From: Boseongicola aestuarii
Lineage (GTDB): Bacteria > Pseudomonadota > Alphaproteobacteria > Rhodobacterales > Rhodobacteraceae
Reading direction: 5' to 3'
Length of the DNA: 64,000 bases
Assembly (NCBI RefSeq): GCF_900184815.1
Contig: NZ_FXXQ01000010.1
Span: 1-64,000, forward strand
Part shown: positions 7,868 to 64,000 of the stretch, in pieces
How positions within the stretch are numbered: the first letter of the stretch is position 1
Layout: every line of letters starts with the position of its first letter
Notes under the pieces: model-generated
Databases searched by the model: none
The model's input: the letters and a program-made list of their open reading frames with translations, nothing else
What the model was told of the DNA's origin: nothing
Program-made: the position numbers and the translations under genes

Positions 7868-8086
7868 TCAGGCGGAGACGTGAGAGGTCAGTCGCGAACG
7901 AAAGAGGGACACGAGTTCTGATCGCGAAGTGACGCGCGCATCATAGCAAGGGCGGACAAATGGATTGGGTTCACCCTCCTGCTTCCACGCGGCAAAGCTC
8001 CGAAACCGGAGCCCCGACACAAGGAAGTAGAGATAGCGATAAAAGGAGGATTTTTGCGCAAACTTGCGCTGAACATATTTGGACAT
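7868..8086 (-). CDS. Small basic hypothetical protein
   Basis: A 72-residue frame rich in Lys, Arg and aromatic residues (opening MSKYVQRKFAQKSSFYRYLY). An AAAGAG element lies about nine bases before the ATG. A hairpin lies shortly downstream at 7822-7839. No family is recognised and it could be spurious. Support comes only from its amino-acid composition and the flanking signals. The surrounding 7677-8219 interval otherwise shows no gene. Confidence 0.35.
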   Translation of the reverse strand: MSKYVQRKFAQKSSFYRYLYFLVSGLRFRSFAAWKQEGEPNPFVRPCYDARVTSRSELVSLFRSRLTSHVSA

Positions 8087-8219
8087 TTGATACTCTTTAC
8101 AACTGGGTACTTATACAACTCTGCCAGATTTGCAGACAAGTTCGGCCGGATTATGGCGGGGCCGGTGTGATTTCGTGGAATCCCTCGGCCAATTGTGAAC
8201 GCCTCGGGCAACTGCCTGC

Positions 8220-8441
8220 CTATTTACGCGCAAACCAACGTCCGGAGGCGGTATCCTCCTGTAGCGCGTCGACAAACTCGAGATCGAGAAAGCCATCGTA
8301 GCGCAGTCTCGAGGGGCGCATTCTGTCCTTGTTTTTCCGAATGGTCTTCTTCGGGCCTACCGCGTCGTTATGTTCTGGGCAGGGGGAGGAACTCTCCAGG
8401 AAGCACTTTCCCGTTTCCCTGCAGTACTTAAATGTGCACAT
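8220..8441 (-). CDS. Small cysteine-containing hypothetical protein
   Basis: A 73-residue frame opening MCTFKYCRETGKCF, with four cysteines in the first 21 residues, and ending in an acidic/aromatic stretch (RYDGFLDLEFVDALQEDTAS). AAAGG lies eight bases before the ATG, a good ribosome site. It lies in the same direction as, and 49 bases after, the Flp-like pilin gene. The cysteine spacing might bind metal. No family is recognised. Confidence 0.5.
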   Translation of the reverse strand: MCTFKYCRETGKCFLESSSPCPEHNDAVGPKKTIRKNKDRMRPSRLRYDGFLDLEFVDALQEDTASGRWFARK

Positions 8442-8490
8442 ATGCTTTACCTTTGTACTCGCTAACTAAACTCTGTCTTGGACGCATCTC

Positions 8491-8727
8491 TTAGTCGCAG
8501 ACGCCTCCTTCACAGAGTATTCCAGCGCTCTCTTCGAGACTGCTCTCAATCGACGCCGCCGCACCAACAGTTCCAGCGCCAATGGATGTCATGACCACGA
8601 TGGCCAGGGCCACGCAGATTGCGGTCAGAAATATCCAATCGACGGTGACGGCACCTGACTCTTCGGCAAGGAAGCATTTGCATTTGTGGGATGGGCTTTG
8701 AGCGGTAATGGAATTCTGCTTTGTCAT
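8491..8727 (-). CDS. Flp-like type IVb pilin / TadE-type small prepilin
   Basis: A 78-residue protein with the prepilin arrangement: a short polar leader, then EESGAVTVDWIFLTAICVAL, a processing-type site followed by an acidic/hydrophobic helix, as in Flp/Fap pilins. The C-terminus has two cysteines (LCEGGVCD). The start at 8727 is chosen because GGAG lies eight bases upstream; an upstream ATG would add nine poorly supported residues. It follows the OmpA lipoprotein gene in the same direction. It would be a surface pilin subunit processed by a TadV/CpaA peptidase encoded elsewhere; this is inferred. Confidence 0.72.
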   Translation of the reverse strand: MTKQNSITAQSPSHKCKCFLAEESGAVTVDWIFLTAICVALAIVVMTSIGAGTVGAAASIESSLEESAGILCEGGVCD

Positions 8728-8789
8728 TTTAGGGACTCCGAGTCGAAAGGTCATTGAAGAGTGGATGAGGAAACCGGGCTTGCGCGCGG

Positions 8790-9785
8790 TTAATCCTCGT
8801 CACCGCCCTGGTTGCGATCGTACGACTTGCCAGGATCGCCCCCGTCAGGACCATTACCGCGTCCAGCGTCCATGTGATCGCTGCTCGGGGTCGAGGATGC
8901 CTGCGACGGAGTGTTCGGCCTTGAAGCGCTGTCGCTCTTGCCAGGCGTCGGGTCGTTCTTCGGGTTCGTCGGTGTATCCACGGGGGTCGAACGCGTGTTC
9001 TTACTCTCAGAGCCCGATCCAGAAGGGGTGGATACTTTTGTGCCAGGGGGATTTGAGCTTGGGCTCGTGCTTTCGACAGTTCTGCTGGACACGGTGACGA
9101 TCGTTTGAGGAGGTTCGCCATCTTCAACGATAGGGACGCCGGTGGACTCGTTCGAGGTCGTTGACGTGCCAGAGGGCACCGTGTCCGAAGATGACCAGAA
9201 GAATTGCCGGTCCTTGGACCCATCGCTCAGGTTTGGACGATACGGGCGCGGGTGACGCCGCCACCAGGGACCCTCATCGAGCGTGGCGACTTCCTTGACG
9301 AGACCGGCAACCTCGATGGTCACCCTGCGGTTCAGGCGCTCCGGGTTTTCGGTTTCGATAAGAGGGTCGTCTTCGCCTTGGGAGACCAGCGCTTCGAGCC
9401 TGTCGCGCTCGATTCCGGCCGCGACCAGGTACTCGAGAACGCGCTTTGCGCGGCGTTGCCCCAGATCCAGGTTGTAATCGGGGTTGCCGACCTTGTCGGC
9501 ATGTCCCGTGACCGAGAACTGAAGCTCTGGGCGCTCCGCCATCCAGGCAACCTGGGCATTCAGGAGAGCCTGGGCGTTCTGGTCGAGCGTGTCGCGATCA
9601 AAGGCGAAGGTGACAGCCAGAACCGGCCCAACGCGTTCGTCAAGAACCGCGAGCGGGAAGCGCTCTGCGGTGGTGACGGCTTCGCCGCCCGCTGAAAAAT
9701 GGACTGTCTGGGTGTTAGGTGCGCAACCTGCAGTCAGCAGGAGGGCGCCGGCGCAGACCGCGCCGAGAAGCTTACTCGTACTCAT
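8790..9785 (-). CDS. OmpA-family lipoprotein with Pro/Ser/Thr-rich tail
   Basis: A 331-residue outer-membrane lipoprotein. A signal peptide ends in the lipobox LTAGC (cysteine at 20). An OmpA-like peptidoglycan-binding domain follows (about 55-160), with VTFAFDRDTLDQNAQALL, VTGHADKVGNPDYNLDLGQR and RLNRRVTIEV. The rest (about 185-331) is a disordered Ser/Thr/Pro/Gly-rich tail, unusual for this family. OmpA-like proteins are common accessory genes of Tad pilus loci, and the next gene on this strand is a Flp-like pilin, so the pair may act together at the cell surface. Confidence 0.82.
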   Translation of the reverse strand: MSTSKLLGAVCAGALLLTAGCAPNTQTVHFSAGGEAVTTAERFPLAVLDERVGPVLAVTFAFDRDTLDQNAQALLNAQVAWMAERPELQFSVTGHADKVGNPDYNLDLGQRRAKRVLEYLVAAGIERDRLEALVSQGEDDPLIETENPERLNRRVTIEVAGLVKEVATLDEGPWWRRHPRPYRPNLSDGSKDRQFFWSSSDTVPSGTSTTSNESTGVPIVEDGEPPQTIVTVSSRTVESTSPSSNPPGTKVSTPSGSGSESKNTRSTPVDTPTNPKNDPTPGKSDSASRPNTPSQASSTPSSDHMDAGRGNGPDGGDPGKSYDRNQGGDED

Positions 9786-10308
9786 AATTCACCTACTTGG
9801 TGTTACTGGTTAAAACTGGCGGGATACATCCGCCGACAGTTGTCATTTAACAGCACAAAATGGGAGATAGTATGACCCGATTATGGAAATTTTGTGGCGC
9901 ACCGACGGAAGATGTGAACCCTTCGCGTGTCTGATCGAGGCACTCTTTCTTAAGTGTATGAAAGAGGATGACCGAGGCTCTCGTCGACTTTGGTTGGGAG
10001 AGAGTGCGGTATAATGGTTTGCGGAAGGCAATAGAGAGTTCTTGTGAACAATATCTGTGGGCCTGATGGGGCGGAGAAAGACACAGCACAGTCTGCCTTG
10101 GCAACACGATAAAGGCGTGGGCGGCGGGATTCGATATGTCAGCATTGCCCCCGGAGGTCATAAAATAATTCGATTCACCAGACTAAGGTCTGAGTGCCAC
10201 TACGACGTTTTGCGGTACCAGTAGGACCATATGCCGATGCATGTGGCGATTGAATTGCACACATTGGAAACGTACCGCCCAATTTTGGGCCTATACTGGA
10301 GACCGTAC
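9786..10308. other. Intergenic region between OmpA lipoprotein and EF-hand genes
   Basis: A 520-base AT-rich gap between divergent genes. Short frames exist but none has a credible start, ribosome site or motif. It presumably holds promoters for both neighbours. Confidence 0.5.
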
Positions 10309-10674
10309 ATGAAACTTTCCCAACTCCTTCTCACCACATCGATTTGCGCCGTGGTCGCAATGCCTGCTTTCGCTCAGGCCCGGAGCTTTGCTGACGTCGA
10401 CACTGATGGGAACGGCGAGCTCTCCCTTGAAGAACTGAAAGAGGCTTTCGGGAACGCTGGGGCGAACTCCATACTGGTGCGCAATGACCGTGATGGAGAC
10501 GGCGCGGTTACCGTTGCAGAGATCAAGATATCTAAAGATGACGAAGACGATGATGACGAAGACGACGAAGATGACGACGAGTCCAGCGACGAAGACGATG
10601 ATGAAGATGACGACGAGTCTAGCGACGAAGATGACGACAGTGATGACGAGTCTAGCGACGAAGCTGACGACTGA
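10309..10674 (+). CDS. Secreted EF-hand protein with long Asp/Glu/Ser tail
   Basis: A 121-residue exported protein. The start at 10309 is chosen because MKLSQLLLTTSICAVVAMPA is a clean signal peptide (cleavage near AFA-QA) and GGAG precedes it; a longer upstream frame would bury the signal. Two EF-hand loops follow: DVDTDGNGELSLEE and NDRDGDGAVTVAE. The last ~45 residues are almost only Asp, Glu and Ser in a repeating DEDDDESSDED pattern. The protein should bind Ca2+ in the periplasm or outside the cell. The function is unknown. A strong hairpin follows the gene. Confidence 0.8.
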   Translation: MKLSQLLLTTSICAVVAMPAFAQARSFADVDTDGNGELSLEELKEAFGNAGANSILVRNDRDGDGAVTVAEIKISKDDEDDDDEDDEDDDESSDEDDDEDDDESSDEDDDSDDESSDEADD

Positions 10675-10740: not shown

Positions 10741-10780
10741 ATCAACCTAACCCGGCTTAAAAAAGACAAGGAACGCTTCT

Positions 10781-11419
10781 GTGGAAGCTGTCACACAAAC
10801 CAAATATCAAAAGCTCTTCGCCACGCCGCTCCTCCGCTTCAAGGTCGAGGGAGCGCATAGGCTCAACAAAGAGCTTTTGGCCGAGGGTGGCCGTCTACGT
10901 GCGCAAACCGAAGGTGTTTCAAAATCAAATCGAGGCGGATGGCATTCCGCCGGCAACTTGTTTGAAAATGAAGCGCCGTGCATCCAAGAACTGAAATCCC
11001 ACGCGACACAGACTGTTTTGAGCGCCACCGAGACCATCGGGGCGAAGGCGGATATGTCCGCGTTTGATCTCAAGCTGTTTGCCTGGATGAATGCCAACGT
11101 ACCGGGGGGCTACAATGCCCCCCATACGCATCCGGGCGCGCATTGGTCTGGTGTTTATTACGTTGCGCAACCGGAGGTCGAAACCGGATCATCGGGAAAG
11201 ATCGAATTTCTCGATCCGCGCTCCGACTTGCCCAATTGGCGCAGGCTTCAGGCCCCCCCCTTTAGCGCGAAAAAGGCTTTTCGGCCGGAGCCAGGCGAGC
11301 TCATCCTCTTTCCCTCCTATCTGGTGCACTGGGTACATCCGAATGAAACGCCAGATGAGCGGGTCACAGTCGCGTTCAATGCGACGTTTCGTAAGACCAG
11401 AAAAGGACGAAAAGCCTAA
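10781..11419 (+). CDS. TIGR02466 family protein (2OG-Fe(II) oxygenase-like)
   Basis: A 212-residue protein that resembles the TIGR02466 group, a putative 2-oxoglutarate/Fe(II) oxygenase fold. The likely metal ligands are seen: an H-x-H pair in NAPHTHPGAHWSGVYY and a distal His in LILFPSYLVHWVHPNE, followed by a basic residue in DERVTVAFN. It starts with GTG at 10781; AAGGA lies eight bases upstream. It stands alone and converges with the response-regulator gene. The substrate is unknown. Homologues often occur in marine bacteria and cyanophages. Confidence 0.75.
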   Translation: MEAVTQTKYQKLFATPLLRFKVEGAHRLNKELLAEGGRLRAQTEGVSKSNRGGWHSAGNLFENEAPCIQELKSHATQTVLSATETIGAKADMSAFDLKLFAWMNANVPGGYNAPHTHPGAHWSGVYYVAQPEVETGSSGKIEFLDPRSDLPNWRRLQAPPFSAKKAFRPEPGELILFPSYLVHWVHPNETPDERVTVAFNATFRKTRKGRKA

Positions 11420-11482
11420 TTCGGCGATGCCTGAGACGGGGTTTTTGTCGGCCAGTGCTTCCGTGGAGACAGGCCGCCAAGC

Positions 11483-12127
11483 CTATTCAACGCGCCCCCA
11501 GGCCTCGTGCGCGATCAGGGCGGCTTCAACGCGGTTTCTTGCGTCAAGTTTGCCCATGATAATGGTCATGTAGTGTTTAACCGTTTTTTCCTGAATATCG
11601 AGTGCGTTTGCCACTTCCTTGTTGCTCTGGCCCTTGGCAACCAGCTTCAGGATGTCCTCCTCCCGCTTGGTCAAAGACTGAAGCGGTGACGTCGACGTGT
11701 TGGTGTCGGATTTCGACATTATCGTCAGAACTTTTGCGGCAAGCGCGGGTGACACATGCGCCTCGCCGCGGGTCACGCCTTTAAGAATGCTGCGTAATTC
11801 GCGCGCCGACACCCCTTTGAGAATATAGGCAACCGCGCCCAGCTTCAGCGCATTCGCAACATTTTCGTCTTCTTCCGAGACCGTAAGCATGGCGACGTGC
11901 TTGGCGCTATTTGCAGCAACGATTGCACTCACGGCCGAAAGCCCACCCCCCGGCATCGACAAATCGAGCAGAGCAATATCGGGATGCTTTTGCTCGGCCA
12001 AGCGTATCGCTTCCTGCGCCGAACTGGCCGTCGCGACGACACGGAATTCTCCGGTTTCTTCGAGGCTGGTGACAACGCCATCCCGGTAAATTGGATGATC
12101 ATCTGCGACCAAAATGCGAAGCGTCAT
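11483..12127 (-). CDS. NarL/FixJ-family response regulator
   Basis: A 214-residue regulator with a receiver domain (acidic pair D9-D10, phosphoacceptor D55 in LLDLSMPGGG, Lys in AYILKG) and a LuxR-type HTH (about 150-205, LTKREEDILKLVAKGQSNKE ... VKHYMTIIMGKL). Its ATG overlaps the stop codon of the histidine-kinase gene by four bases (ATGA), so the two are translationally coupled and almost certainly partners. The target genes are unknown. Confidence 0.93.
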   Translation of the reverse strand: MTLRILVADDHPIYRDGVVTSLEETGEFRVVATASSAQEAIRLAEQKHPDIALLDLSMPGGGLSAVSAIVAANSAKHVAMLTVSEEDENVANALKLGAVAYILKGVSARELRSILKGVTRGEAHVSPALAAKVLTIMSKSDTNTSTSPLQSLTKREEDILKLVAKGQSNKEVANALDIQEKTVKHYMTIIMGKLDARNRVEAALIAHEAWGRVE

Positions 12128-60997: not shown

Positions 60998-61852
60998 ATG
61001 ACCCAAACCGATCTTGAAGGCCCGGCGGCAACACCGCCGGGCCTCACCCGCCGACAGGTCTATGAAGCCCGTATCCGGCGCCGCTCGATGCGCGTTGCGG
61101 CGACGTCGACTGGCGCGGTCCTGCTTGCATTGTTTATCCTCATTCCGCTTGCTCCGGGTTGGGAAGGCGTGAAGAAGAGTTTCTTCAATGCCGACGTGTT
61201 CGCCCGCACATTTCCCGGGCTTTTGGAGGCGTTTCTGCTGGATGTGGCGATCTTCGCCTGGTCGGCGCCACTGATCTTCTTGCTTGGCTTGTTGATCGCT
61301 CTTTGCCGCGATGCGCAGTCACCGGCCCTTTATCCTCTGCGACTTTTTGGCATTCTCTACACCGATATTTTCCGCGGTGTGCCGGTCATTCTGGTCATCT
61401 ATCTGATCGGCTTTGGTATTCCGGGCCTTGGTCTGCCACGGCCTTGGAATTCGCCTTATATCTGGGGCACCGTTGCGCTGGTTCTAACTTATGCGGCTTA
61501 TGTGGCCGAGGTGCTCAGGTCAGGCATTGAAAGCATTCACCAAAGCCAGCGGGCCGCGGCGGCGTCGCTTGGCCTCAGTCATTCGGACACCATGCGGTTT
61601 GTCGTCTTGCCTCAGGCGATCCGAAGGGTCGTTCCCGCAAACATGAACCTTTTCATAGCGTTACAAAAAGACGTCGCCCTTCTGAGTTTTATCGGACCGG
61701 TCGAGATTTTCCGACAGGCGGGTGTCTACAAGTCCCTTCTGGCCAACTTCACGCCCTATGTCGGGGCGGCGCTGATCTTCCTGGCGGTGACCATCCCGGC
61801 GACGCGATATGCGGATTACCTGATGAACAAACAGGCGCGGGCGCGAAGCTGA
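60998..61852 (+). CDS. Polar amino-acid ABC transporter, permease
   Basis: A 284-residue membrane permease of the HisMQ/GlnP type with the EAA loop [20 protein letters not shown] and [20 protein letters not shown]. It begins with the base after the binding-protein stop and overlaps the ATPase gene by one base. Confidence 0.92.
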
Positions 61853-62580
61853 TGACCAAGCTGGAATTGCAGGGAGTCACCAAGCGGTTTGGCGAAAACG
61901 TCGTGTGCCGCGGGATCGATCTGAAGATAAATGAAGGCGAAATGGTCTGCCTGATTGGCGCGTCCGGTTCCGGCAAGTCGACCCTGTTAAGATGTATGAA
62001 CCTCCTCGAGCCCGTCGATGATGGGGTGATCCTGCTTGATGGGGTGGATATCGCCGAGCCGGGTCTCGACCCGCAACCGGTGCGTCAGCGCATTGGCATC
62101 GTCTTTCAAAGCTTCAATCTGTTTCCGCATATGACGGCTGTGGAAAACGTCATGCTTGCCCCGCGCCGTGTTCACAACCGCACCCGCGATGACCTTTTGC
62201 CCGAGGTAACCGAGCTGTTCACACGCTTTGGTCTGGCGGATCGGATGGATCACTATCCGGATCAGCTTTCGGGCGGGCAACAGCAACGCGTTGCGATCGT
62301 GCGTGCCTTGGCGATGAAGCCGGAAATCATGCTGTTCGATGAAATCACCAGTGCCTTGGACCCGGAACTGGTCGGCGAAGTGCTGGACGTCCTGCGCAGG
62401 CTGCGGGAAGCGGGCATGACGATGGTTCTGGCGACTCACGAAATGGGATTTGCGCGCGAGTTGGCGGATAAGGTCTGCTTTCTCGACAAGGGCGTTATCC
62501 TCGAAGAGGGCCCTCCCGCGCAGTTGTTTTCGGACCCAAAACAAGAGAGAACCTGCGCGTTTCTGGCGCGCGTCCTCTGA
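61852..62580 (+). CDS. Polar amino-acid ABC transporter, ATPase (GlnQ-like)
   Basis: A 242-residue ATPase with Walker [21 protein letters not shown], signature [17 protein letters not shown], Walker [19 protein letters not shown] and H-loop LATHEMGFA. It closes the amino-acid uptake operon. A truncated, antisense nirV relic begins right at its stop codon. Confidence 0.94.
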
Positions 62581-63100
62581 CACCGCGAAGCCGCTTGCGG
62601 TTTCTGCGCCCGTGGCGCGATCCCTTCGACCAGATTGGCAAACGCCCAGGTCAGCGATGGAGTGGTGAACAGTCGATCGGGTTTCTCGGGCACGACACGC
62701 GCAGCGATGTATCGCCATTCCACGGTCGTTGGCAGGCGAAAGCCGTGGTCGGTCCTGGTGTTTTTCCAAGCGACCTATTCCTGGACGTCGAGATGATAAT
62801 GGAAGCCGGTTGCCGGTGTCGTTGCAGGATCTTGATCTGGTCGCGGGCCAAGCGCAAGCGTGCAGCCTTTCTGCGCGACACATGTGGTCCATTCCCGGAT
62901 CGTCACCTCATAGCGCTGCGCATAGATCGGGGCACCGTTCGGGAGCATGATCTCGCGGTCTGCCGTACCGGCAGAACCGAAAGATCGGGGCTACGTATCG
63001 TCAACGCGCACCCGATGGCGATGGTCGCCACCACGACGCCAAGCACCAAAAACCGCGTGGTTTCTTCAGATGACTTCACGTGGCGCGGGGCGACGGACAT
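62581..63100 (-). pseudogene. nirV: nirV pseudogene (FGE/SUMF1-like domain protein)
   Basis: Three pieces on the minus strand add up to one broken gene. From ATG 63100: MSVAPRHVKSSEETTRFLVL and a membrane helix, ending near a frameshift (about 62985-62995). In the next frame: SFGSAGTADREIMLPNGAPI, YAQRYEVTIREWTTC and ATGFHYHLDVQE, then TAG at 62775-62777. After the TAG the same frame continues VAWKNTRTDHGFRLPTTVEW, then RYIAARVV and LTWAFANLVEGIAPRA. This is the formylglycine-generating-enzyme fold (VT-x-x-EW, RLPT-x-x-EW), as in NirV, the usual nirK neighbour. The last part is missing at 62580. GGGAA precedes the start. Confidence 0.8.
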
Positions 63101-63118
63101 CAGATTCTTCCCGTCAGT

Positions 63119-63973
63119 TTAGGCTTCAAAGGAACGCGGGCTGCCCATTTGTTCCATCAGCGCGTTGTCCCAGATTTCATTGACGACGAAGTGCGCGGTG
63201 ACCCTCAGCAACACGCCCTCGATGAGGTTGTGGTTGACGTCGGCTTAAACGCCGGGCTGCTCGAAGGTATACATGGCCGCAACCGCAGAACCGCCGCGGA
63301 CAAACCACCTTGCCATGTCCTGCAAGCGCGGTTCAGTGAACAAATTTTCCCTGACATAGTTCCCATGCCTTCCGATCAGGTGAGGGCGCGAATCCCGGGC
63401 TGCCTGATTGTGGATCATTGGGACGGTCTCGCCGACCGACGCCGTCAGGGCATGTTCGCCCGCGAGCGCGCCAGTCGAGGCGTGAAAGTCGATGTTGTGT
63501 TCCATCATTCTGTCGATGGGACTGCGCCGTGTCAGTTCGGTCATGTCGTCCTGGTGGCAAATGATTGGCGGACCGGGAACAGAGCCGCAACAGGTCAGAG
63601 CCCAGACCGAGGCCCCCGCGTCTTCGTAGACGAGCATCAGGCGTTCAGTCGTTTCCATTGTGATCTCGATGATCTTTGGACAACTTGTGGCCACCTGCTC
63701 ATGCGCCGGTGCGAAAGGAGGCGCGACAAGCTCCTGCTTTGCGCGGGTATACCCGGAGAGATCCGCCGGTTCCGCAATGCTTTCCGCAACTTGCCGGTCG
63801 TTCAAAATGGCGACGGGAACGCATTCAGTGCAGGCGTGCGCGATGGTCGACACAGATCCTCCTGTGCCACAAAGCACCTGACCGGTCTCACCGCAGCGAA
63901 AAGCCGCAGGATGCACGTCGGGGTTCAGATCCGAGGGGTTGCTATCGGATAGCGCCCTGTAGACCCGCATCAA
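63119..63973 (-). pseudogene. nirK: nirK pseudogene (copper nitrite reductase, internally deleted)
   Basis: The frame is open from beyond the right edge to a stop at 63245-63247. NirK similarity begins near 63742: LVAPPFAPAHEQVATSCPKI, VWALTCCGSVPGP, then MEHNIDFHASTGAL (first Cu-ligand region). It jumps directly to ALTASVGETV, RDSRPHLIGRHGNYV and AAMYTFEQPGV, so about 120 residues are missing, including the region with the type 1 Cys and further Cu-binding His. After the in-frame TAA the frame continues ADVNHNLIEGVLLRVTAHFV and ends at 63119. It cannot be functional. The role of the more upstream sequence (to 64000) is not recognised. Confidence 0.8.
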
Positions 63974-64000
63974 AGGCCCGATTTCGCCCGTTCGATATTG

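Follow-up and report, generated by a model that had tools for sequence, protein, structure and literature searches.

Remains of a nirK-nirV Pair

The window, that is, the whole stretch of 64,000 nucleotides that was analyzed (C33:1-64000), comes from a 4.0-Mb draft assembly of Boseongicola aestuarii that is 99.96% complete and 0.12% contaminated. Near its right end an intact gene for the ATPase of an amino-acid ABC transporter (61852-62580, plus strand) is followed on the minus strand by the ruins of a nirK-nirV pair. All minus-strand frames of 62581-64000 were translated and compared with intact NirK and NirV (tblastn), and family models (TIGR02376, Pfam) and 80 named loci were used as further comparison sets for the ruin. 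An earlier note had read this region as a copper nitrite reductase gene followed 18 bases later by nirV, both of them disabled, and all of this is borne out, as the matches are far beyond chance (E 1e-37 and 1e-36 for nirK and 1e-32 for nirV), the gap is correct, and both genes are broken in the ways described below. The extent of the remains needs correction, as they are readable from ∼62590, just beyond the end of the ATPase gene at 62580, and no further part of the operon was recognized beyond 64000.

The nirK remnant occupies positions 63790-63119 of the minus strand and consists of two pieces that are joined in frame. The first (63790-63474) encodes the N-terminal cupredoxin part, in which the EHNIDFH motif is kept (55% identity to intact NirK over 126 residues), and it can also be aligned at the DNA level to six Roseobacter-group relatives. 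The second (63473-63119) encodes the C-terminal cupredoxin part (56% over 121 residues) and ends in the natural stop codon at 63121-63119. The mature part of the protein starts at 63790, and what is tentatively the eroded signal-peptide end, containing indels, extends from 63791 to ∼63930, where it is only faintly readable in a gapped DNA alignment and as a weak continuation of the alignments to L092, L109, and L135, up to L003:5929. Hence the whole nirK remnant lies within the window.

Between the two pieces, at the junction 63473-63474, 366 bp (122 codons) have been deleted in frame, and in all six relatives 366 bases stand opposite this gap. The junction falls between two short similar stretches coding for GAL, one in each cupredoxin domain, and the exact deletion point is ambiguous within this repeat; because of this position, a loss between the short repeats would be the simplest cause of the deletion. 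The deletion takes the alignment columns with the YHC, PYH, GMNG, and PTH motifs, which in NirK carry the type-1 cysteine along with several further residues for copper binding and catalysis. EHN-DFH and NHN are still present, but most of the type-1 and type-2 copper ligands are gone. A premature TAA lies at 63245-63247 where the relatives have TAC (Tyr). The in-frame deletion leaves an open frame of 329 codons, which is recognized by the TIGR02376 model (E 3.8e-38) with 131.6 bits against a curated cut-off of 296.3, and it has neither the two-domain length nor the score of a functional NirK. In view of this recognizable open frame, the earlier note overstated the case in saying that annotation pipelines would report "only short hypothetical frames" here. 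Pfam, unlike TIGR02376, gave no match on the ruin frames. With clear homology and disabling lesions together, the remnant is a NirK-derived pseudogene, and as judged from its sequence it yields no functional nitrite reductase.

The remnant of nirV, which encodes an FGE-like protein, starts with an ATG at 63100, at a distance of 18 bases from the NirK stop, and extends to ∼62590 on the minus strand. It matches intact NirV over 118 residues (49% identity), and in alignments to the NirV proteins of relatives the identity is up to 59%, with the alignments ending at ∼62589. There is a frameshift near 62967 and a TAG at 62777-62775, and roughly the C-terminal third is absent, such that only residues ∼46-161 of the 243-residue intact NirV can be read, with the TAG inside. 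PF03781 matches the intact NirV and none of the ruin fragments, which therefore hold no complete FGE-like domain. Sequencing error was rejected as the source of these lesions in view of the 366-bp deletion, the truncated gene end, and the many substitutions at all codon positions.

Neutral Decay and Its Age

At sites that are unanimous in the six relatives, the ruin is changed at 9.0% of the first (15 of 166), 10.7% of the second (19 of 178), and 10.8% of the third codon positions (4 of 37), a flat pattern, albeit one based on the small number of 38 changes in total. When each of the six functional relatives is compared in the same way with the other five, there are far fewer changes at position 2 and mostly more at position 3. 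Constraint at the protein level has thus been lost, and by its substitution pattern the ruin decays as a neutral pseudogene would, unlike its functional relatives. The same pattern bears on the idea that the in-frame fusion took on a new role as a functional cupredoxin, either single-domain or truncated, for which the in-frame deletion and the open frame of 329 codons might speak. We consider this hardly credible, as constraint on the protein is not evident from the codon positions, the deletion took the type-1 cysteine together with several further copper ligands, and the TAA removes the C-terminal end.

Compared with the consensus of the relatives, the ruin has ∼0.11 changes per site at codon positions 1 and 2, whereas between B. 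aestuarii and its congeners the difference at four-fold sites in the flanking ABC genes is 0.85-1.0, a rough comparison that gives no date. Since the former value is so much smaller, the decay is younger than the split of the genus, which is in keeping with arrival in this lineage alone, and the earlier note was right that protein similarity is still readable as a result of fairly young decay. In its multiple lesions, its flat codon positions, and its youth relative to the genus split, the ruin is the same in kind as other pseudogenes in bacteria that derive from transferred, redundant genes. As a pseudogene it is ordinary, and its history is informative.

The Insertion Site

The ABC transporter ATPase gene is a conserved left flank, with 87-92% amino acid identity in congeners. 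In three of these (G001, G003, and G004) its stop codon is followed after ∼80 bp by a tRNA-Met gene, whereas in B. aestuarii the distance is 7.3 kb, with the ruin as one of the edges of the insert. The locus is hence present and empty in all three; the match in the fourth congener, G002, stops short of the ABC-tRNA site. The inserted segment (C33:62581 to about 69840), of which 62581-64000 is the part within the window, corresponds to L003:4582-11842 (C33:62581-69841). Between the ATPase gene and tRNA-Met it contains, in this order, the ruin, the gene for a small glycine-zipper lipoprotein (plus strand, beyond 64000), marR, and the genes for a membrane-fusion protein and an RND efflux pump. 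The genes of the segment have no match at the loci of the congeners, and a search upstream of the ruin for further remains of the operon (nnrR, pseudoazurin, nor) gave no significant match. The nirK loci of the relatives, taken with ∼8 kb of flanking DNA, contain no close homologue of the flanking ABC gene (best 47%).

No repeats were recognized at the edges of the insert, and no integrase, IS, or other mobility gene among its ORFs, so the segment does not have the marks of an integrase- or transposon-borne element. What it does have is an empty site in relatives, albeit in genomes that are incomplete MAGs, and a NirK phylogeny unlike that of the resident copy (see below), both as expected of a horizontally acquired segment. 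Such arrival in this lineage is inferred, as the insertion could also be ancestral and have been lost three times, a reading to which the incompleteness of the congener MAGs (70-87% complete) lends some room. The insert may also represent more than one event, and the RND efflux genes and nirKV did not necessarily come together.

Phylogeny of the Ruined NirK

The best protein identities of the ruin (∼79%) are to NirKs of the Roseobacter group, and the resident copy on contig C25 is only ∼55-58% identical. In a tree of 60 rows the ruin lies within a Roseobacter-group clade of 16 rows (support 95/91) and the C25 type in a separate clade of four rows (100/100). The end branch of the ruin is long (0.66 against a median of 0.12), so that its placement is approximate and its exact neighbor unsettled. 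Of the groupings put to the AU test, which were chosen after the first tree, that of the ruin with the C25 type is rejected (p 7.8e-6), as is that with the NirK of G003, a congener (p 0.006); joining the ruin with L076 is not rejected (p 0.45). Duplication of the resident nirKV as the source of the ruin was ruled out by the tree together with the AU test. The NirK of G003 (L070, G003:C82) is of the broad Roseobacter type and lies at another locus; as it exists beside the C25 type, at least two types of NirK are present in the genus.

The pairs of the Roseobacter group, such as those from an uncultured Litoreibacter (L076), a Sulfitobacter MAG (L077), and Marivita MAGs (L075 and L081), have the same gene order and the same tight spacing as the ruin. 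What is left of its nirK is 74-77% identical to theirs at the DNA level, and the best protein identity is 79%. In contrast to the ruin, with its 366-bp deletion, stop codons, frameshift, and cut nirV, they are intact and of full length.

The Resident nirK Cluster

The earlier note had concluded that this lineage once reduced nitrite by means of NirK and then lost the ability, and the search of the genome for other denitrification genes that it had proposed contradicts this conclusion, unless contig C25 is a contaminant or its cluster is silent. A full-length nirK at C25:58781-59761 matches TIGR02376 (E 1.7e-141) above the family cut-off and has no internal stop, and its product is of normal length and can be matched along the whole of it to copper nitrite reductases of solved structure. 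An intact nirV lies after the gene, and genes for pseudoazurin and a Crp/Fnr (NnrR-like) regulator lie before it; in locus L004 (C25:50000-61746) the coordinates are 8019-8750 for nirV, 8764-9981 for nirK, 10011-10445 for pseudoazurin, and 10773-11498 for the regulator. This NirK type is common to the congeners G001 and G002 (96-98% identity). The cluster is like the ruin in family (TIGR02376) and in gene order (nirK-nirV), and unlike it in being intact and in belonging to a separate NirK clade. The NirK activity of the genome, if any, would come from this intact cluster. That the ruin is what remains of a lost nitrite reduction is thus very improbable: the pair is truly broken and no nirS was found in the B. 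aestuarii genome, but an intact NirK cluster, of a type shared by two congeners, is part of the same nearly complete and scarcely contaminated assembly.

A search for norB in five genomes of the genus (B. aestuarii and the four incomplete congeners) gave no match, and the norB query did give matches in the positive controls G031 and G077. The search for nosZ was negative as well, but here none of the relatives searched provided a positive control that exceeded the cut-off. In our sample the C25 NirK belongs to a rare clade, present only in this genus and in G164, and in this genus no norB was found. The host of the C25 cluster may hence be a producer of NO with no recognized NO reductase.

A few kb from the intact cluster are a transposase-like (L004:437-742) and an integrase-like ORF (L004:2130-3077), and the C25 cluster may itself be a transferred block. 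Such a transfer is the basis of another reading, xenologous replacement, in which the Roseobacter-type nirKV was the original and decayed after the C25 type arrived. In its favor are the nearby integrase-like and transposase-like ORFs, the frequency of the ruin type among the sampled relatives compared with the rare C25 type, and the persistence in G003 of an intact NirK that belongs to the broad Roseobacter type. However, the ABC-tRNA site is empty in G001, G003, and G004, the copy in G003 is at another place and does not group with the ruin, and the decay is far younger than the genus split, and we regard displacement as unlikely.

Origin and Significance of the Ruin

We propose that a redundant nirKV pair of the Roseobacter type, probably acquired after the split from the sampled congeners, decayed beside the intact resident cluster. 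A second nirK-nirV pair would have arrived between the ABC transporter gene and tRNA-Met, at the edge of the ∼7.3-kb insertion, where it would have been redundant beside the divergent nnrR-pseudoazurin-nirK-nirV cluster, and neutral decay would then have led to the in-frame deletion, the stop codons, the frameshift, and the truncation of nirV at the insertion edge. As the ruin is of a different NirK lineage and borders an insertion absent from three congeners, it was presumably a redundant or foreign copy that decayed. Redundancy is the likely cause of the decay, and the resident copy is presumably active. A variant of this proposal, in which the pair was dead on arrival, both genes having been damaged (nirV cut, nirK broken) before the segment entered, and never worked here, is possible although rather doubtful. 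It would account for the cut in nirV at the edge of the insertion, at a distance of ∼10 bp from the stop codon of the ABC gene, but a later deletion explains this edge equally well, the nirK lesions lie away from it, and the order of lesions and arrival is not readable from one genome.

The ruin is hence no proof of lost nitrite reduction, which corrects an inference that might otherwise enter an annotation. It is instead an example of gain and decay of nirKV in the Roseobacter group that is younger than its genus, and it is a warning that nirK fragments from gene surveys can be pseudogenes. A more speculative and improbable reading is that NirK turnover was under constraint, in that two nirKV lineages came together in a single genome, within a genus with no recognized nitric oxide reductase, where the one typical of the family was lost and the rare one kept. 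If true, this would bear on the question of which kinds of NirK a cell with no NorB can tolerate.

The other side of the tRNA-Met gene also differs within the genus. In B. aestuarii (L003:11990-16850) it contains genes for an MFS-like transporter, a 256-residue protein with no Pfam match, and a LysR-type regulator, and in G003 a different gene, for a protein of 788 residues, is found there, and the tRNA-Met gene looks like a variable spot.
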